A stretch of 64,000 bases of DNA, from the IMG/VR virus record IMGVR_UViG_3300020462_000004, positions 1 to 64,000 of that record; one strand, 5' to 3'. A program made the position numbers and the translations under genes. How positions within the stretch are numbered: the first letter of the stretch is position 1; each line of letters begins with the position of its first letter. The notes under the pieces are model-generated. The model did no database searches. It saw only the letters and a list, made by a program, of their open reading frames with translations, and was not told the origin of the DNA. Positions 18,561-62,179 of this stretch are shown here, one piece after another. The DNA is from a virus.

Positions 18561-19424
18561 CTAAGCTATACAGAATTCTAATCTTTGCTCTTTAGTTTGA
18601 TTTGGTGTTCTTTTGATTCTTAAACCAGCAATATAAGTTTTATCATTGTTATCTAGTGGGCGAAAATCTGTTTTATCAGCATCAAATATATAATATTTTT
18701 TGCTATCTATTATTATAAATTCTGGAAAATCTTGAGATTTTTTAATATCAAAAGCCGCTGCATAATTTAGTTTTAATTCTGTAGCTTTAGCAAGTGTATT
18801 AAATTTACTACCATGAGATAAAGTTAAATGGTAATTTAATTTTCTACATTTTTCCCAGTCTCTATCGATTCTCTTTGTATAATCGTACGCAATTAATTTA
18901 GTACTAATTGATTGATTTAATTTAGTATCTAATCCTTTTAAAATAGCTTCTAAGATACTTGTATATCTAATTGGTTCGATATATACACCGAATTGTTTTA
19001 ACAGATAATCAGAATCATTTGAAGTAATAGTTACAGGCACATTTTCCCATGAATAGTCACTAGTACCATTAAGTCTTAAACCTAAATTTTTATAGTCTCT
19101 ATTTTTGGAATAAAAACGAATTGTTTCTAATACTAAATTTCTAAGAAATAAATTAAAATCTTGCATAAATGCATTATTCCTTCTTTGCCTACATTTAATT
19201 TTATTATTCAAATAAGCTGGGTTACCAGCCATATTTAAACAAATTTTTCTACAAGTCCCAGCGGCTGGGCATGCTTTAACAGTAGGCAATAAATACAAAA
19301 CCAAAGTAGGTGCATTTGATACAGTTAAATTTTTCATTACTTTAGGACTAGTTAAAGTAAATGTATTTGTACTGTTTAGATTCCATTTTGTACGGAATTC
19401 TTTTAAATCGTTTGATAATTTCAT
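18561..19424 (-). CDS. GP88-like phage protein, 287 aa
   Basis: Matches my recollection of the phage 'gene product 88' family. The Cys cluster KACPAAGTCRKICLNMAGNP is followed by RRNNAFMQDF, then LRLNGTSDYSWE and later IAYDYTKR. The conserved Cys set near residue 57 suggests a metal or Fe-S site. The biochemical role is not known to me; it is commonly found in early regions of phages. It is preceded by a 32-bp leader identical to that of the gene at 19472, implying shared control. Confidence 0.7.
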   Translation of the reverse strand: MKLSNDLKEFRTKWNLNSTNTFTLTSPKVMKNLTVSNAPTLVLYLLPTVKACPAAGTCRKICLNMAGNPAYLNNKIKCRQRRNNAFMQDFNLFLRNLVLETIRFYSKNRDYKNLGLRLNGTSDYSWENVPVTITSNDSDYLLKQFGVYIEPIRYTSILEAILKGLDTKLNQSISTKLIAYDYTKRIDRDWEKCRKLNYHLTLSHGSKFNTLAKATELKLNYAAAFDIKKSQDFPEFIIIDSKKYYIFDADKTDFRPLDNNDKTYIAGLRIKRTPNQTKEQRLEFCIA

Positions 19425-26996: not shown

Positions 26997-28520
26997 ATGG
27001 CAGGTACAAGTATTTACAGCGTCTATAGACGCACAGCTAGAGCAGCTGCAAAACAACAGGTTGTTAAAAAAACTTCTAATGTAGATGTTGAAAAGGCTAG
27101 AAAAAATTTTGCATATTTTTGTGATGTTGTAGGGGGGAAGCCTCCAGCTGAACACCATCTTGAATGGCATAAATATCTCTGTACAGGTGATGATAGTGTT
27201 TGTCTAAAAAGTATTGCCGGTCCAAATATAGATATACTTGCTCCAAGAGGATCTGCTAAATCTACAGTTTTAGGTTTATATACAGCCTGGTCTATTGGCA
27301 TACATGCTTTAAATAAAATGCCTTTAAAAATTTTATATATTTCTTATACTGTTGATGTAGCTAGACCTAAGAGTGCAGCAATAAAAAGAATTATCGAAGA
27401 GAGTAAAATTTATAAAGAAATTTTTCCGATGGTAAAGATTGCTAAGGGAATAAATTCTAACGAATATTGGAGTATAGATTGGAAATTTGCAGGAATAAAA
27501 TCCACTGGTGAAGAAGAGTTCAGTGTATGTTGTGCTGGATTGAAAGGTGCAGTTACATCAAAAAGATCACACCTCTGCATAATTGATGACGCAATAAAAA
27601 GTTCAGACGATATTAAAAATAAAGACATAAGACAAGCTATGGAAGATAACTGGAATGCTGTTATTGTTCCAACTATGTTTGAAGGTGCAAGAGCTATTTG
27701 TTTAGGAACTAGATTTAGACATGATGATATTCACAGCACAACTTTCTTACCTTCTAGTGGATGGAAACAAATAGTACAATCTGCCATAACTGTAGATGAA
27801 GAAGGAGAAGAAACATCTTACTGGCCGGATATGTGGTCACTTGAATATTTAAGTGAAAGAAGAAGAACTGCTCCAGTTGCATTTAGTTTTCAATATCAAA
27901 ATCAAATTGTTCAGACTAGTGAATTATCTCTTTCTCCTGATCTGATTGTTAAAGGAACTATATCTACAGAGTTTGATACTTTAGGAGTTGGAGTAGATTT
28001 ATCGGCTGGTGTTAGAGAACAAAATGATTATACAGTTTTTGTTATGGGTGGAAGAGTAAAAGATAAAATTCACATCATAGATTGTAAAAGAGTGAGAGTT
28101 ATGGGGAATTTAGAAAAATTAGAACTTTTAATGGAAATGATGGAGGAGTGGGGAATAATTCATAAAGATGGAAAAAATTATTTTCCTACAGGTAGTTCAA
28201 TAGATGTTTGGTCAGAAGCTGTTGCATATCAAGCTTCGTTAGAAGCAGATTTTAAAAGGATTTGTTTACAGGAACAAGGTTTATACAATTTAATTTGGCA
28301 TCCAGTAAAAGGTTTTCGTGGAGATAAAGTTGCAAGATTTCGAGGAATTATGGGACTTTTTGAACAAAGAAAAATCATTTTTAATAAATATCGAAAAATG
28401 ACTTATTTAACAGATGAGATTGTAAATTTCGGGGTTAGCTCACATGATGATTGTGTAGATGCCTTAGTGTGGCTATGTAATGGGTTAATGACTCGTGGAA
28501 AACTTGAGTTAGAGTATTGA
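26997..28520 (+). CDS. terL: Large terminase subunit (packaging ATPase/nuclease), 507 aa
   Basis: The ATPase part shows a Walker A-type loop LAPRGSAKST at about residue 80 and Walker B LCIIDD near residue 192. The nuclease part has GVDLSAG at about 330 followed by NDYTVFVMGG, and SSHDDCVDALVWL near the C-terminus, the usual acidic metal-binding clusters. It cuts and pumps DNA into the prohead through the portal. Length fits the family. The upstream gene is a likely small subunit; the portal gene follows after one small gene. Confidence 0.9.
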   Translation: MAGTSIYSVYRRTARAAAKQQVVKKTSNVDVEKARKNFAYFCDVVGGKPPAEHHLEWHKYLCTGDDSVCLKSIAGPNIDILAPRGSAKSTVLGLYTAWSIGIHALNKMPLKILYISYTVDVARPKSAAIKRIIEESKIYKEIFPMVKIAKGINSNEYWSIDWKFAGIKSTGEEEFSVCCAGLKGAVTSKRSHLCIIDDAIKSSDDIKNKDIRQAMEDNWNAVIVPTMFEGARAICLGTRFRHDDIHSTTFLPSSGWKQIVQSAITVDEEGEETSYWPDMWSLEYLSERRRTAPVAFSFQYQNQIVQTSELSLSPDLIVKGTISTEFDTLGVGVDLSAGVREQNDYTVFVMGGRVKDKIHIIDCKRVRVMGNLEKLELLMEMMEEWGIIHKDGKNYFPTGSSIDVWSEAVAYQASLEADFKRICLQEQGLYNLIWHPVKGFRGDKVARFRGIMGLFEQRKIIFNKYRKMTYLTDEIVNFGVSSHDDCVDALVWLCNGLMTRGKLELEY

Positions 28521-28748: not shown

Positions 28749-30992
28749 ATGAGTGAAAGTAATAGCAAATCTGTTCTGGAGGATATGATTAAATCCGTCA
28801 TTAATAAGGACGGTAAGGGAACTGCAGACACCATGCTAATTAGTTCTCATTTATCCCAGATGAAGATGTTTGGGATTAGACAGGGTGTTGAATATTATCC
28901 ACTGCAGGATAATCTGGGAACTCAGAGATTTGATTTCATACAACAAGTAATTAAATTTAATCAGTTGGATGCAAGATTAGATGCAATATGGGATAGATTT
29001 TTAGTTTACGGAAAAGGATTATTTTATATAAGACCAACAGAAAAATCCTACAGACTTTATTGGTTTAACAAAGATTCTTATAGGACATATTATTCTCCAG
29101 AAGGAGAGCTTGAAGAAGTAATTATTATTTATCCTTATAAGGTTAGATCATCTAAAGGATTTTCTGGAGTTGGTTTAAATACAGATAAAAGATATATGAG
29201 ATTGAAAATAACTGCAAAAGAAGTAGAAGAATTTCATAGTGAACAAGAAATAACATTTGAACAAGAAAATATAAATTTTGCGACCTTTGATAAAAAAGTT
29301 GTAGAAAATACTATGGAGTTTATTCCATGTGTAGAAGTATTTAATAATCCAGATGCTTTTGGAACTGACGGATCAGGCGAGTTTGATTTTTTATCAAATC
29401 AAATTGTTGCTCATGATGAAATGGTTAAAAATATAAGAGCAAATTTATCATTCTTTGGTAATCCAACTTTATTATCTTCTCGACCAAAACAGGACATTGT
29501 AGAGAATGATGATACAGCAGTTCAAAGACCTAGCATATCAAGTCAGTCTGGGTTTGCTTCAGATGTCAATCTTTTCAGTTCTACATATAAATCAGATCCC
29601 GTAACAAGATCTCCTGCTGGTTACACTGGAAAGCCAGGATCTGGTATGAGAGTTCCAAGAGTTATTGCTAATTTGGAGCCTTCAGATCGTGTAGGATTTA
29701 TAACTCCTAATCCTGTTGGTTCAGATCAAGCTAGATATACAGAACAATTAAGAAGTGAAATTAGATTAGCTCTTGGTGGTATTGATGATCTCAGTATTAC
29801 TAACGTAACAGCAACTGAAATTAAATCAGCATATGGTCGAGTAAGTGCCACTGCTAAAAAGAAATGTTTACAGATTTATACCTATGGAATTTGTAGATGC
29901 TTCGAATTAATGATTTTTCATGAAGAACAAATTTTTAGAAAATCACTTGCTTTTTCTGTAGGTCTAAAAGTACCTGTTCCACCAGAAGATGTAGAAGATC
30001 AAAAACAAGTAGATAAATTTAGAAAACAAAAAGCAAAATACGAACAAAAATTACAAGAGGCTATTGATCTTGCAATAGATACACAAGAGATTCCAAATAA
30101 TGTTGTAGGGCTTGCTCCCGATGGAGATAGGACGGTACTTTGGAGATGGATGGGTCCTGTGTATGAAGATACGGCACAGGATAAATTAAACCAATCTATC
30201 TTTACAAGAAACCTTCAAGAATTGGGGGTTGATAGTATAGAAGCACTGAAGTATTTATTTCCTTCTAAAACTGATGACGAAATTGCTGGGATGCTTTCCG
30301 GCTTTCCATTCAGAATGGTAGGAGAGGTACAAAGGGCGTATTCATCATTTATTGATCTAATAAATCAAGAGATGAGGACTCCGCACCCACAACAGCCAAA
30401 CCTACCAATGGCCGCAGATCCTCGTCTTGATCTAACTCCATTTTTATACAGAACATTAGAATCATTACAGAAAGAGGTAACTTATGCAGGACGCTACCGC
30501 AGCTCAGACCCAATCAGCACCCCAAGTATCCCAGACCCCACAGACCAGCTACGTGGCTCCTCAGACAGCAGCCCAAGCACCTTCCGTAGGGACTTCCCCC
30601 CAATGGGTGGCACCGACAACAGCACAGGTGGCACCAGCACCACAAGTGCAAGCCCAGATGGGGGTTCAGGGTTACCAATCAACCCCTACAGCGTACAGCC
30701 CCCAAGTACCACAGGCGACTCCACAAGCGGAGAACCCTTACAAGGACGCATTTACGAAGGTGGTAGGGCTCCTGAGTTCACCAGTCCAATTCCCGTTCCA
30801 GGGTCAACAGTCTCCAAACACACCAGCAGTAGACCAGGGCAACTACGGATACCCACAAACAACCCAGTACAGCAATCCGGCTCAGCAGACTTATACGCCT
30901 TCGAGCAACAACAGCCAGGGGTACTCCAGCAACTCTTCCCAAGTTTCTTCGGAGATAACAGACCAGCAGCTAAGGGCAAACGGAGTAAGTGA
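28749..30992 (+). CDS. Portal protein, 747 aa, with a dual-coding tail
   Basis: Residues 1-575 read as a portal: helical wing and clip regions, a conserved core (DNLGTQRFDFIQQVIKFNQL), and the block VTATEIKSAYGRVSATAKKK characteristic of portal stems. It is placed between terminase and capsid genes, as in P22-like phages, whose portals are similarly long. The final 169 residues (579-747) are Ser/Pro/Gly/Thr-rich and overlap the scaffold-like gene in another frame. The portal tail may be disordered. Start ATG at 28749. Confidence 0.8.
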   Translation: MSESNSKSVLEDMIKSVINKDGKGTADTMLISSHLSQMKMFGIRQGVEYYPLQDNLGTQRFDFIQQVIKFNQLDARLDAIWDRFLVYGKGLFYIRPTEKSYRLYWFNKDSYRTYYSPEGELEEVIIIYPYKVRSSKGFSGVGLNTDKRYMRLKITAKEVEEFHSEQEITFEQENINFATFDKKVVENTMEFIPCVEVFNNPDAFGTDGSGEFDFLSNQIVAHDEMVKNIRANLSFFGNPTLLSSRPKQDIVENDDTAVQRPSISSQSGFASDVNLFSSTYKSDPVTRSPAGYTGKPGSGMRVPRVIANLEPSDRVGFITPNPVGSDQARYTEQLRSEIRLALGGIDDLSITNVTATEIKSAYGRVSATAKKKCLQIYTYGICRCFELMIFHEEQIFRKSLAFSVGLKVPVPPEDVEDQKQVDKFRKQKAKYEQKLQEAIDLAIDTQEIPNNVVGLAPDGDRTVLWRWMGPVYEDTAQDKLNQSIFTRNLQELGVDSIEALKYLFPSKTDDEIAGMLSGFPFRMVGEVQRAYSSFIDLINQEMRTPHPQQPNLPMAADPRLDLTPFLYRTLESLQKEVTYAGRYRSSDPISTPSIPDPTDQLRGSSDSSPSTFRRDFPPMGGTDNSTGGTSTTSASPDGGSGLPINPYSVQPPSTTGDSTSGEPLQGRIYEGGRAPEFTSPIPVPGSTVSKHTSSRPGQLRIPTNNPVQQSGSADLYAFEQQQPGVLQQLFPSFFGDNRPAAKGKRSK

Positions 30993-31497
30993 AGCCAGCC
31001 TTGAAGTCATTAATCATTTTGGTGCTGATGCTCCAGCAGTTTTAAATAATTATGCCTGTCAGATTGAAGATTCACTAATAACAACTAATCAGCAATTAAG
31101 TGAAGCTGTAAGTCTACTAAAAGAAATGTCACAAGAGCATAAAGCTTATGAACAGATCTTGACAGACCCAGATGTATTAGCTGATTACACATGTGAGTTC
31201 TTTGGACAAAATGGACCATATCCAGTAGAAGAAGATCAGGCTGCACCTAAGCAGGCTCCCTCATTTGCAGGTCAACAGTTCCAAAATCCACAGGCTCAGG
31301 CTCAAGCACAAACTCAGGCTCCTGTAAGACCAGATATGCCTGTACCTCCAGCTCCACAGACTCCAGCTGATCCTGGTGACTTCTGGAAGGACTTCGGAGG
31401 AGCTACTGATAGAGATCCTCAGAACGCATGGAGATATTTAAATGCTGCTCAACAAAATCCTGAAGTATTCCGTCAGAAACTTCTTGTGATGGAGTAA
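30484..31497 (+). CDS. Probable scaffold/assembly protein overlapping the portal gene, 337 aa
   Basis: The ATG at 30484 has AAAGAGGTAAC upstream, a good ribosome site. Residues 1-160 are Gln/Pro/Ala/Thr-rich and disordered; residues 170-225 are helical (ANGVSEASLEVINHF, LSEAVSLLKEMSQEHK), and a Gln/Pro/Ala linker leads to a C-terminal helical tail (WRYLNAAQQNPEVFRQKLL). Position between portal and major capsid genes and the helical/acidic ending fit a scaffold. The first 169 codons are read from DNA that also encodes the portal tail. A strong terminator follows. Confidence 0.7.
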   Translation: MQDATAAQTQSAPQVSQTPQTSYVAPQTAAQAPSVGTSPQWVAPTTAQVAPAPQVQAQMGVQGYQSTPTAYSPQVPQATPQAENPYKDAFTKVVGLLSSPVQFPFQGQQSPNTPAVDQGNYGYPQTTQYSNPAQQTYTPSSNNSQGYSSNSSQVSSEITDQQLRANGVSEASLEVINHFGADAPAVLNNYACQIEDSLITTNQQLSEAVSLLKEMSQEHKAYEQILTDPDVLADYTCEFFGQNGPYPVEEDQAAPKQAPSFAGQQFQNPQAQAQAQTQAPVRPDMPVPPAPQTPADPGDFWKDFGGATDRDPQNAWRYLNAAQQNPEVFRQKLLVME

Positions 31498-31505
31498 AGC
31501 TAAAA

Positions 31506-31535
31506 GGGGTGGGCTTCCACCCCATTTTATTTTTT
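31506..31535 (+). terminator. Strong terminator after the scaffold-like gene
   Basis: GGGGTGG and CCACCCC form a perfect 7-bp GC stem (31506-31512 with 31517-31523) around GCTT, followed by ATTTTATTTTTTA. It divides the portal-scaffold part from the following small genes and capsid gene. Confidence 0.9.
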
Positions 31536-32226: not shown

Positions 32227-32307
32227 ATGGAATTTATTTTCCAGTATACAGAGCACATTCAGTGTTCGCAATCAGCAAACCTAGCTGAAATTCAAAAATG
32301 TTTATAG
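32227..32307 (+). CDS. 26-aa open frame overlapping the capsid start
   Basis: An ATG at 32227 opens MEFIFQYTEHIQCSQSANLA... and stops at 32307, 10 nt past the capsid ATG. The overlap could couple translation of a leader peptide to the capsid gene. It may also be chance. Confidence 0.35.
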   Translation: MEFIFQYTEHIQCSQSANLAEIQKCL

Positions 32308-33443
32308 ATAACGATTTTCCGAAGCTGCTGGGTGCCGAGTTATATAGACCACATCCTGCGTATATCGTAGAAATGGCTTCCGAGCCAGTTGTGGTACATG
32401 ACTTCACCAAGCAGCCAGGTCAGACCGTTCAATTAGATCGCTACCGCTTCTTTGGTAATCCTGGTACTAAGACCTCTAGAGAGAGGACTCAGGATCAGAC
32501 TATCGGAACAGCAAACAGCAGATCTATCGTAAAGGACAAGGTACTTGTATCTCTTAGGGAATATACAGGTCCTGCTGACCCTAACAATTCAAATCTTCCT
32601 AGCACATTTAAAATTGCTAGAGAAACCCTAATGACAGCTCAGCGTTTACTTCTTGATACTGGAAACTTAAATATGTTCCATCAATCAATTGGTTCGTTGA
32701 CACTGTTAGACGATTACCGTAGATGGAGAGACAGAGTATTCATTGATGAGCTATTCAAATCTGAATCTCGTGGTGCTGCATCTGATACACAGGGTGGTTA
32801 CTACTATCCAAATGGTAAGACAAAATCTAACTCAACAACACTAAACTCATACTCTGCTACAGAATATGCTTCTGAGCGTTTCAAGTTTAATGTAAAGACT
32901 GACCTTCTTGAGGTAGTTAAGAGTCTAAGAAAACGTCACGTACCTGTATTCTCAGACGGATATTATCGTTGTATAGCTGACCCTTCACTAATGAAGGATC
33001 TCAGAGCAGATCAAGGCTTCCGTGAGGTAGCTAGATATCCAGGAATGGGCCAAGGTTCACCTTTAATGGGTTCAATGGCACCTAACCAAGCTATTTATGG
33101 CGGTGGTCAGTATGGACAGGCTCAGTTCGTAGCTGGTGAACCAGTTATGCCTTCTGGATTCGTATTTGAAGGAGTAAGATTCTTTGAATCTACAAACTTC
33201 CCATCTAAAACAATAACGGTCGATATTGGAGATGGAAATGGAGCTGTATCTAAGACAACTCCAGCAGGACTATTTTTTGGTCCTCAAGCTATCGGTGTTG
33301 GTATCGGTGGTCCTAACGCTCAAGTTTTAATCAATAACAATGATGACTTCTCAAGATTCATCATCCTTATATGGCAGCTATATGCTGGTTTTGCGAACTT
33401 GAATAAGGACTTCATTACCACTGCCTTCACAATTACAGAGTAA
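32298..33443 (+). CDS. Major capsid protein, 381 aa
   Basis: Strong virion features: RERTQDQTIGTANSRSIVKD near the N-terminus, a helical spine with LDDYRRWRDRVFIDELF, and the stretch YRCIADPSLMKDLRADQGF followed later by FVFEGVRFFESTNF. That ordering (a 'Pxx..DLR..' block, then '..GVRFxES') resembles the N4-gp56-type major capsid family with HK97 fold. It follows the portal-scaffold part and precedes a probable decoration protein. It forms the capsid shell. Subfamily assignment is tentative. Confidence 0.75.
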   Translation: MFIDNDFPKLLGAELYRPHPAYIVEMASEPVVVHDFTKQPGQTVQLDRYRFFGNPGTKTSRERTQDQTIGTANSRSIVKDKVLVSLREYTGPADPNNSNLPSTFKIARETLMTAQRLLLDTGNLNMFHQSIGSLTLLDDYRRWRDRVFIDELFKSESRGAASDTQGGYYYPNGKTKSNSTTLNSYSATEYASERFKFNVKTDLLEVVKSLRKRHVPVFSDGYYRCIADPSLMKDLRADQGFREVARYPGMGQGSPLMGSMAPNQAIYGGGQYGQAQFVAGEPVMPSGFVFEGVRFFESTNFPSKTITVDIGDGNGAVSKTTPAGLFFGPQAIGVGIGGPNAQVLINNNDDFSRFIILIWQLYAGFANLNKDFITTAFTITE

Positions 33444-34381: not shown

Positions 34382-34822
34382 ATGCTATATCAACACAAAG
34401 TAACTGGTGGTTTAGTTGAGAAGATATCTCAGCACGGAGATGGAATCTTCATGGTTGTGAATGCGAATGATGAAGTAGATTATGTTCATGAAGATGATTT
34501 AATTCCGCATTTAGAAGCAACTAATGAAAAAATAAAAACAGAAGAAAGATTAACTGCAGAATTAAAATCCACTGGTGATAAGAGTGCAAAACCAACTAAC
34601 AAAGAAACTTTCCCTCTTGATAGACGGTTAAATATTAACACTGCCAGTGCAAGACAAATTGCGGATAGCCTACCTGGTGTAGGGTTGAAAACAGCAAGAG
34701 ATATAAAAGATTTACAAACAACAATGACAGGAGAGAGATATACAAAATTAGAGCAACTTAAAGGAATCAAAAGAATTGATTGGGATGCAATATTTAAAGA
34801 GAACTTAGTGAGAGTAGACTAG
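34382..34822 (+). CDS. Helix-hairpin-helix protein in the connector region, 146 aa
   Basis: N-terminal 50 residues look like a small barrel (LYQHKVTGGLVEKISQHGDG). A charged linker leads to LNINTASARQIADSLPGVGL, a helix-hairpin-helix DNA-binding motif of the ComEA type (residues about 83-108: INTAS...LPGVG...A..I). A DNA-contacting protein in this place may sit at the portal or tail entrance. Function inferred. Confidence 0.65.
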   Translation: MLYQHKVTGGLVEKISQHGDGIFMVVNANDEVDYVHEDDLIPHLEATNEKIKTEERLTAELKSTGDKSAKPTNKETFPLDRRLNINTASARQIADSLPGVGLKTARDIKDLQTTMTGERYTKLEQLKGIKRIDWDAIFKENLVRVD

Positions 34823-58698: not shown

Positions 58699-59315
58699 CA
58701 GATTACTTTGCCAATATGAGAAAATATATTTTTAAATCTTTCTGTTTGATTAAAACCTAAATCTATTTTAGGCAAATAAATAAAATATCCCCAACTTATA
58801 GGTGATTCTAAACATTCGTATTTTTTACCATGTATTAAATTAGCTCGATTAGTAGGAACACAAACTGGGAAATCCCACATTTCTGGACACGTTCTTATCA
58901 TTTCAGAATATGTAGTAAAAAACAAAGCTTCTGATATATTTCTTAATTTCCATTCTTTTAATAATCTTCTAAACCATATTACAGATGGAGCTTTTGCTCC
59001 TTGACCTGCAGATAAACTCCATCTCCACGTACCTCTTTTTTTCGCAAAAGAACATCTTCCGAAGGTAGGAGGGAATAAATAAGTTTTACCAGTCCAAGGC
59101 TCCTCAATATTTAAACCATCTATCTCATATGTATATATTTTTTTTGCTCTTAAAAATTGATTATTTGCATCATATGTAGAGCAAGGATCTAAGTCTATAG
59201 TTCTTAATAAGGCATCTATATAAGGTAAATATTCACAAGGTGTTAACCAATCATGAGTTATGTGGTCTACTTGTGCTAATGATCTTCTACTAGCACCCCA
59301 TGATCCTTTAGTCAC
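58695..59315 (-). CDS. Phage DNA N6-adenine methyltransferase-like protein, 206 aa
   Basis: Fits the compact phage Dam family: DWLTPCEYLPYIDALLRTID, LDPCSTYDANNQFLRAKKIY, DGLNIEEPWTGKTYLFPPTF. In the usual enzymes the catalytic motif is (D/N)PPY; here it reads FPPTFG, so activity may be altered or lost. The order of motifs (TP...D.DPC...A...DGL..W....PP) is right. It overlaps the upstream gene by four bases. Possible DNA-protection role. Confidence 0.65.
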   Translation of the reverse strand: MTKGSWGASRRSLAQVDHITHDWLTPCEYLPYIDALLRTIDLDPCSTYDANNQFLRAKKIYTYEIDGLNIEEPWTGKTYLFPPTFGRCSFAKKRGTWRWSLSAGQGAKAPSVIWFRRLLKEWKLRNISEALFFTTYSEMIRTCPEMWDFPVCVPTNRANLIHGKKYECLESPISWGYFIYLPKIDLGFNQTERFKNIFSHIGKVIC

Positions 59316-60776: not shown

Positions 60777-61486
60777 TGTCAAGTTTTTTTGGAGGGGGAT
60801 CATCACCACAAATTATGATTCCTGATCAGCAAAAATCAAAAGCATTTCAGACTATAATACCGCAACAGACTTTTCAAAATGCAGCGGAATACATGGGAAG
60901 ATTGGATGATGAATACAATAGAACACTTGATAGACAATATGATCAAGTAGGAACTTCTGCCGAAATGGGAGCTAGAGCAAAAGGAAGACAGCTGCAAGGC
61001 CGTTCATCTTATCTATCATCATTACCATATACTGCTGGACAAGATGTAAGAGATGTAGCAGAAACAAGAGAAGGTGATGCAAAACTTGCTTATAAAGATG
61101 CTTTAGACAGAGCTAAAACGTCTGAGCGTAAATACGCACCTGTAACTAAATCAGGATTTGATAGCAGGCAATATTTAGAAAATTATCGAGATCTAAGAGA
61201 TGCTTTTGGTAATGATTTAGAAAAAGCTAAACAACATTATATAGACTTTGGAAAGGATGAAGGCAGAACTGATGAAGATATTCATGGATTAAATAAAGGA
61301 GTACCAGGCTTTGCTAGATCTACTGAATCTTCATTTCTCCCAAGAGAAGCAAATGTAACTAATGCAACTAATGCAACTAATGCAACTCAGTCCAACATTG
61401 ATGAAACTCAGTCCAAGCAAATAGAAGATTTATATAAAAAATATCAACCTAAGACCGCCTATAGTTATATGAATAAAGAAAACTAA
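60776..61486 (+). CDS. Virion-type protein with one 'YLxNYxDLxxAFG' unit, 236 aa
   Basis: Residues about 125-160 contain YLENYRDLRDAFGNDLEKAK followed by QHYIDFGKDEGRT, one copy of the unit repeated five times in the 5999 product. The N-terminal half is polar and virion-like; a short NAT tandem (NVTNATNATNATQ) comes from 9-bp DNA repeats at 61353-61387. Likely a partner of the other repeat protein. Role inferred only. Confidence 0.6.
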   Translation: MSSFFGGGSSPQIMIPDQQKSKAFQTIIPQQTFQNAAEYMGRLDDEYNRTLDRQYDQVGTSAEMGARAKGRQLQGRSSYLSSLPYTAGQDVRDVAETREGDAKLAYKDALDRAKTSERKYAPVTKSGFDSRQYLENYRDLRDAFGNDLEKAKQHYIDFGKDEGRTDEDIHGLNKGVPGFARSTESSFLPREANVTNATNATNATQSNIDETQSKQIEDLYKKYQPKTAYSYMNKEN

Positions 61487-61501
61487 TAGAAGTTAATTTT
61501 T

Positions 61502-62179
61502 TTATAGAATGACTTTACCAAAATTCACGGAATCTTTTATATTGTCAGTAATTTGACCAAAATTAATTTGTTCTTCAACAGTTTCTACTGTAAATCTCCA
61601 ATCTGTCACTGATACATTCAATCCAATAGAGTAAGTCGTTTCTAAATATCTAATATCATTTGTGATTACGAATAAATATTTACCTTTTTGTAATAATGAA
61701 GATGGATAATCATTTAATAAAATCCCAGTGTCATCATCTTCATAATCTATTGCTGAATCACGAAACACATATCCATCATTATTTATAGGTAATTCTTGTC
61801 TATGCCCATTTTCATCAATTTCATAAAAGGCTAATAAAGTATTTCTATTAGTTTGATTTTCATATGAAGTAGCAGAAAATTCTTGAGTAAATTGAATTGA
61901 TCTGGGCAAAGATAAATTTATTTCATAAAATGTGCTTTGTTTTCTTGATAAACCACCATGAGTATTAGTTATAACTTTTGTTTTAAATGTTTCTGTGAAA
62001 TCTCCAAGATCTATTGGGTTATTTAAATTATCTCCTTGTTCTGCAGGTCTAGGATCAGAACCAAAATAAGAAGTAGGTCCGTATGCAGTAGGTCCTGCTC
62101 CACCTGTGGGGTAAGCTTCAACAGTACCTAAATTAAAAAACCCTAAATTAGTTGGGATAGTAGTAAGAAATCTTGCCAC
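61502..62179 (-). CDS. Beta-rich surface-type protein, possible PPC-like domain, 225 aa
   Basis: N-terminal Gly/Pro-rich (FFNLGTVEAYPTGGAGPTAY), then NNPIDLGDFTETFKTKV, YEINLSLPRSIQFTQEF, LLAFYEIDENGHRQELPINN, LLQKGKYLFVITNDIRY. This series resembles the pre-peptidase C-terminal (PPC) beta-sandwich. No signal peptide is seen. A fibre or virion surface role is inferred, on the opposite strand to the neighbouring 60776 gene. Confidence 0.5.
   Translation of the reverse strand: MARFLTTIPTNLGFFNLGTVEAYPTGGAGPTAYGPTSYFGSDPRPAEQGDNLNNPIDLGDFTETFKTKVITNTHGGLSRKQSTFYEINLSLPRSIQFTQEFSATSYENQTNRNTLLAFYEIDENGHRQELPINNDGYVFRDSAIDYEDDDTGILLNDYPSSLLQKGKYLFVITNDIRYLETTYSIGLNVSVTDWRFTVETVEEQINFGQITDNIKDSVNFGKVIL

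Follow-up and report, generated by a model that had tools for sequence, protein, structure and literature searches.

The stretch of virus DNA described here (IMG/VR record IMGVR_UViG_3300020462_000004, positions 1 to 64,000; hereafter the window) comes from a virus record of 67,392 bases, a relative of Synechococcus phage S-EIV1, and carries a portal gene whose last 509 nucleotides (nt) also form the beginning of the next head-assembly gene in a different reading frame. Sequence comparisons make it very probable that two proteins, each with its own translation start, are read from this single mRNA segment and that both are under selection. The overlap (about 455-640 nt) was found in every intact relative, i.e. 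in approximately 250 loci from five deep lineages with portal identities down to 45-48%. Small-genome viruses supply the best-known cases of long out-of-frame overlaps in which selection on both proteins is proven; here, an overlap of approximately 500 nt is fixed in a widespread lineage of cyanobacterial viruses, tailed double-stranded DNA (dsDNA) phages with genomes of 67-88 kb, and the genes concerned are those of the DNA gate and, probably, of the scaffold.

The portal open reading frame (ORF) extends on the plus strand from 28749 to 30992 (747 aa, stop TGA); its single-coding part (28749..30483, 578 aa) encodes the portal fold and matches PHROG 20475 (E=1.7e-213). The second gene, for a probable scaffolding protein of 337 aa, is in the +1 frame relative to the portal ORF and occupies positions 30484..31497 of the same strand (start ATG, stop TAA), with its N-terminal half inside the portal gene. 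The dual-coding overlap (30484..30992, plus strand) specifies portal residues 579-747 together with second-frame residues 1-169. Six nt before the second-frame ATG ends a Shine-Dalgarno sequence, AAAGAGG (30471..30477, plus strand), which is conserved in lineages A-C, and one codon before the ATG lies an in-frame TAA stop (30478..30480, plus strand), because of which upstream entry into the second frame in its own frame is impossible. An earlier note on this DNA, made from the sequence alone, had described a 509-nt two-frame overlap at 30484-30992 behind an AAAGAGG ribosome site, giving low-complexity segments of two assembly proteins, and had regarded it as unusual. Coordinates, frames and ribosome site are exactly as it gave them, the two low-complexity segments were found as described, and no other two same-strand ORFs that reach 100 aa share as much as 200 nt anywhere in the window; the longest overlaps after it measure 185 and 172 nt.

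Relatives, hundreds in number, were collected by IMG/VR scans with three portal queries and from genome contigs. Because portal-based searching could bias the sample towards carriers of the overlap, a pattern for the capsid gene was used as a second sampling anchor, independent of the portal and scaffold genes. The first scans yielded 193 untruncated loci, 192 of which keep the overlap (464-641 nt). A second deep lineage (portal approximately 47% identical) has it in all untruncated loci except L295; in this lineage the second frame opens with GTG, shifted one codon downstream, and a nearly invariant AAGGAG..AAGTTACA precedes this start. The capsid-anchored sample shows the overlap in 54 of the 56 loci with both genes, and adds a fourth lineage (nine loci, portal identity 45-48%) and a fifth (L382, 55%); the two exceptions are L378, on the same contig as L017, and L328, a multiply broken locus. 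Homologues with one frame broken and the other kept, which the earlier note had named as counter-evidence, were looked for, and the only breaks are those in L017, L038, L295 and L328, none of which is an intact relative. A 134-bp deletion bounded by a short repeat removes the overlap in L017/L378; in L038 the portal frame is cut by a nonsense codon before the overlap begins, no indel is present there and the second frame is intact; L295 and L328 are broken elsewhere too. A relative with separate genes was not found among the IMG/VR, genome-contig and capsid-anchored loci. The presence of the overlap in all lineages sampled indicates that it is older than the common ancestor of every member found.

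No stop codon occurs in either frame of the overlap in 136 non-redundant loci, whereas permutation of synonyms leads one to expect 2.8 and 3.5 per sequence, and the third frame contains 6.6 stops per sequence. In lineage A, the divergence at portal codon positions 1, 2 and 3 is 0.05/0.02/0.24 upstream versus 0.13/0.05/0.09 in the overlap, a shift that recurs in lineages B and C; at portal third positions, divergence is 0.24-0.35 outside and 0.07-0.12 inside. Portal four-fold sites give values of 0.305/0.310/0.406 upstream versus 0.057/0.044/0.088 in the overlap, and second-frame four-fold sites 0.242/0.265/0.357 downstream versus 0.123/0.125/0.170 in the overlap. Synonymous-site variation across 30484-30992, which the earlier note had proposed to compare per frame in homologues, is reduced in both frames. 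Suppressed portal wobble together with relaxed other positions is the pattern expected when each base serves two codons. The most variable overlap position is second-frame position 3, equivalent to portal position 1, and the second frame is somewhat more constrained across the overlap than the portal frame. Between pairs of sequences, the amino-acid identity in each frame is 81-91%, compared with 53-66% under a null model in which the other protein is fixed and codons are resampled (an excess of 22-29 points). Gap-free pairs give 0.030 (overlap) versus 0.336, a contrast that is inflated because these pairs were picked for low overlap divergence. Slow evolution or recent common ancestry of the overlap was ruled out, as portal positions 1 and 2 change more there than in the core. 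We conclude from these substitution patterns that the overlap is a case of true dual coding, with selection on both proteins.

A reading in which only the portal tail is translated, the next gene begins beyond the portal stop and the other frame is open by composition is very unlikely. The S-EIV1 database record, which annotates only a 402-nt gene after the portal, agrees with such a reading, and low-complexity, G+C-rich sequence has few stops; when portal synonyms are permuted in the window overlap alone, the second frame stays open in 24% of the trials (and the portal frame in 1.3% when second-frame synonyms are permuted), a result that is not decisive alone. Portal coding alone cannot, however, yield portal four-fold sites that are 5-7 times less variable in the overlap, and the absence of stops from all 136 loci and the conservation of the second-frame start, its Shine-Dalgarno sequence and a helix motif also argue for translation of both frames.

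The portal label given in the earlier note was confirmed by the fold. Residues 8-474 of the AlphaFold model match solved portals (T7, P22, SPP1, 80alpha and cyanophage portals); the top Foldseek matches in the PDB are all portals (E down to 2.1e-9), VIA-align yielded Z up to 16.1 over 306 residues, and the gene sits between the large terminase and capsid genes, as expected of a portal. The overlap-encoded residues 579-747 form a Ser/Pro/Gly/Thr tail of 169 residues, which is predicted to be disordered and lies outside any structural match. Two motifs are found in this tail, both inside the overlap on the plus strand: SPIPVPGS (30783..30806), with P682, P684 and G685 invariant in 88 sequences, and GSADL...PG.LxxLFP (30879..30935), with G711 and D714 nearly invariant and P723 invariant; GSADL also occurs in lineage D. 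The model of the second protein, of low confidence (predicted local distance difference test (pLDDT) 44), shows a disordered N-terminal half, a short helix (residues 85-97), a long helix (183-227) and C-terminal helices (300-335). Its residues 1-169 are rich in Gln, Pro and Ala and are predicted to be disordered apart from a single short, conserved helix, NPYKDAF...GL (30733..30774, plus strand, inside the overlap), which carries the conserved motif N-P-[WY]-x-x-A; this NP[WY]xxA is kept across the aligned lineages including D. The second gene lies between the genes for the portal and the major capsid protein, with two small ORFs also between them. Because the capsid gene that follows has no evident scaffold domain at its N-terminal end, a scaffolding protein is the best guess for its product, and a reasonably probable one.

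In the proposed mechanism, the portal gene would run past its folded core into the disordered tail, and a second ribosome-binding site inside the portal-tail coding sequence would start the next head-assembly gene in the +1 frame. Independent internal initiation is the simplest reading of the conserved start, the Shine-Dalgarno sequence in lineages A-C and the stop just upstream. Both disordered segments would act in head assembly, e.g. as short linear binding motifs. The earlier note had suggested a fused or co-regulated portal and scaffold, for which no support was obtained. A +1 shift anywhere in the overlap would indeed join the frames, but a portal-scaffold fusion by programmed frameshifting is highly improbable, given that the second frame keeps its own start, a conserved Shine-Dalgarno sequence and the stop just upstream; no search was aimed at slippery sites.

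Some observations weigh against internal initiation of a scaffold gene as set out above. The second-frame ATG of lineage D is displaced downstream by 12 nt and has no clear Shine-Dalgarno sequence before it, and translational coupling may therefore help the second-frame start in that lineage. Searches of PHROGs, Pfam and PDB sequences gave no significant match to the second protein, which is weak evidence because scaffolds diverge fast; of the scaffold label in the earlier note, the gene position fits and a family match is lacking, and the name, which draws on that position and on a low-confidence model of helices and disorder, is provisional. That both products are made in infection is a prediction from the sequence. 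Finally, synonymous change is also suppressed over approximately 270 nt (about 30214-30483) before the scaffold start, strongly in lineage B.

This upstream wobble constraint implies at least one more DNA or RNA signal here. A 23-nt element, GTTGATAGNATNGAAGCACTGAA (30228..30250, plus strand), is located inside the portal body, approximately 235 nt before the scaffold start; it is present as a single copy in the window, is exact in about 195 of 297 loci and, down to its wobble bases, scarcely varies in lineages A and B. Protein conservation alone was rejected as its cause, as wobble sites are free to vary in other protein stretches of equal conservation, and a further ORF over the upstream stretch was rejected, as most loci have stops in the remaining frames of the plus strand and in those of the minus strand. 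The element is a possible promoter, packaging or RNA signal. No sigma-70-like promoter was found at its position among the consensus matches, an Rfam search of the upstream stretch gave no match at gathering thresholds, and consensus RNA folds of this stretch in the lineage A and B alignments yielded differing structures with little covariation. Haplotype blocks of lineage B in the upstream 270 nt look mosaic, and slow evolution or recent common ancestry may lie behind the constraint in that lineage.

The reach of the constraint some 270 nt upstream, with its wobble-conserved element, would fit an RNA structure or DNA signal, instead of a second protein, as the source of the synonymous constraint in the overlap as well. 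This is nevertheless very improbable: overlap substitutions follow the second-frame codon positions, with position 3 changing most, as they would not under structural constraint; consensus folds differ between lineages, with little covariation; and folding z-scores of 101-nt stretches are mostly weak (the strongest, -2.8, is upstream in S-EIV1). RNA structure or a DNA signal may thus be the cause of the upstream constraint, not of that in the overlap. To return to two independently initiated proteins, a more specific version is rather unlikely, namely that the portal tail and the front half of the scaffold cooperate at the portal vertex (e.g. as partners starting assembly), with the overlap ancient and obligatory and the signal at 30228-30250 controlling scaffold expression.

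The overlap has a G+C content of 56.2%, compared with 34.2% in the rest of the portal gene and 34.8% in the window, and is the highest-G+C 509-nt stretch of the 64 kb (mean 0.348, standard deviation 0.041); the local counts in the earlier note, 38/60 at 30541-30600 and 15/60 at 29401-29460, are exact. At third codon positions, G+C rises from about 19-24% where a single frame is coding to 54% in the overlap, within which all three codon positions have 45-61% G+C. Both overlap-encoded segments are rich in Pro, Ala, Ser, Thr, Gly and Gln. Two factors explain the spike: no AT-rich wobble position is left free, and the encoded amino acids are G+C-rich. Published viral overlapping genes carry an excess of C, proline and serine and a deficit of A and T (PMC6195259). 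As for the suggestion in the earlier note that the segment was acquired, a foreign G+C-rich insert would agree with the highest G+C of the window but is extremely unlikely, as overlap G+C is above that of the portal body in 181 of 181 relatives, at the same place and with the same rise whatever their own G+C, and as the loss of the AT-rich third position accounts for the G+C content and the enrichment in C, proline and serine is that reported for viral overlapping genes. Codon usage fits the portal and second frames alike (-0.30 vs -0.26) and is uninformative on which came first; either frame may be the added one, because each of the two segments encoded by the overlap is attached to a domain that looks complete without it.

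S-EIV1 (KJ410740) is the only isolate in the phage collection with a clearly related portal. It shows the same head-module gene order and the same overlap, with the portal extending to 59840 and the second frame starting at 59287; identity with the window is 52% for the portal and 38.5% for the second protein. Its second gene corresponds to KJ410740.1 59287-60264 (L081:7742-8716), whereas the record annotates the last 402 nt (133 codons) alone, as a separate ORF after the portal, and misses the overlapping N-terminal part. In the only isolate, half of a head-assembly gene has thus been lost to standard gene calling, and the same probably holds for many metagenome annotations. The S-EIV1 major capsid gene (KJ410740.1 60859-62010, L081:9314-10465; 384 codons, GTG start, product 71% identical to that of the window) is also misannotated: a minus-strand coding sequence (CDS), 60784-61545, is placed over it, and only its C-terminal part is given as a plus-strand CDS.

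Among known systems, the scaffold gene Nu3 of phage lambda starts inside the upstream head gene C, in the same frame, and the two products share protein sequence; the likeness is in the scaffold start within an upstream head gene, and the difference is that here the frames differ and no protein sequence is shared. The nested lysis genes phiX174 D/E and lambda Rz/Rz1 place a functional gene inside another in a different frame, whereas here head-assembly genes overlap end to start. Closest in arrangement are the terminal out-of-frame phage overlaps such as phiX174 A/K (reviewed in PMC8227390), in which the same DNA serves as the 3' end of one gene and, in another frame, as the 5' start of the following gene, under dual selection; the present case differs in belonging to a tailed dsDNA phage with a genome of 67-88 kb, in its length of approximately 500 nt and in involving the portal and the next head gene. 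Such a portal/next-head-gene overlap was not found in the literature searched, which did not cover the original S-EIV1 description. Genome compression is an unlikely reason for the overlap because of the genome sizes, and the reason for keeping it becomes directly testable with S-EIV1.

The gene order of the head module is large terminase (26997-28520, PHROG 38), small ORF, portal, second gene, two small ORFs and major capsid protein (32298..33443, plus strand; PHROG 1357 major head protein, E=2.7e-15). A terminator-like hairpin followed by a T-run (31506..31523, or 31506-31528 when delimited more widely, plus strand) stands directly 3' of the second gene; of the loci compared, such a site occurs there in 25 of 39 from lineage A, 2 of 53 from lineage B and 6 of 44 from lineage C. 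The S-EIV1 cyanophage group has also been met in ocean viromes (PMC5332604). Elsewhere in the window, a 146-aa ORF of the head module (34382-34822) scores 26.8 bits against the helix-hairpin-helix family PF12836 (cut-off 27), and a 287-aa ORF on the minus strand (18564-19424) matches Pfam GP88 (PF17338, E=3.9e-15). A lineage-C relative carries, between its scaffold-like and capsid genes, a 312-aa ORF (L214:4566-5504) that by eye resembles the sigma-70 family.
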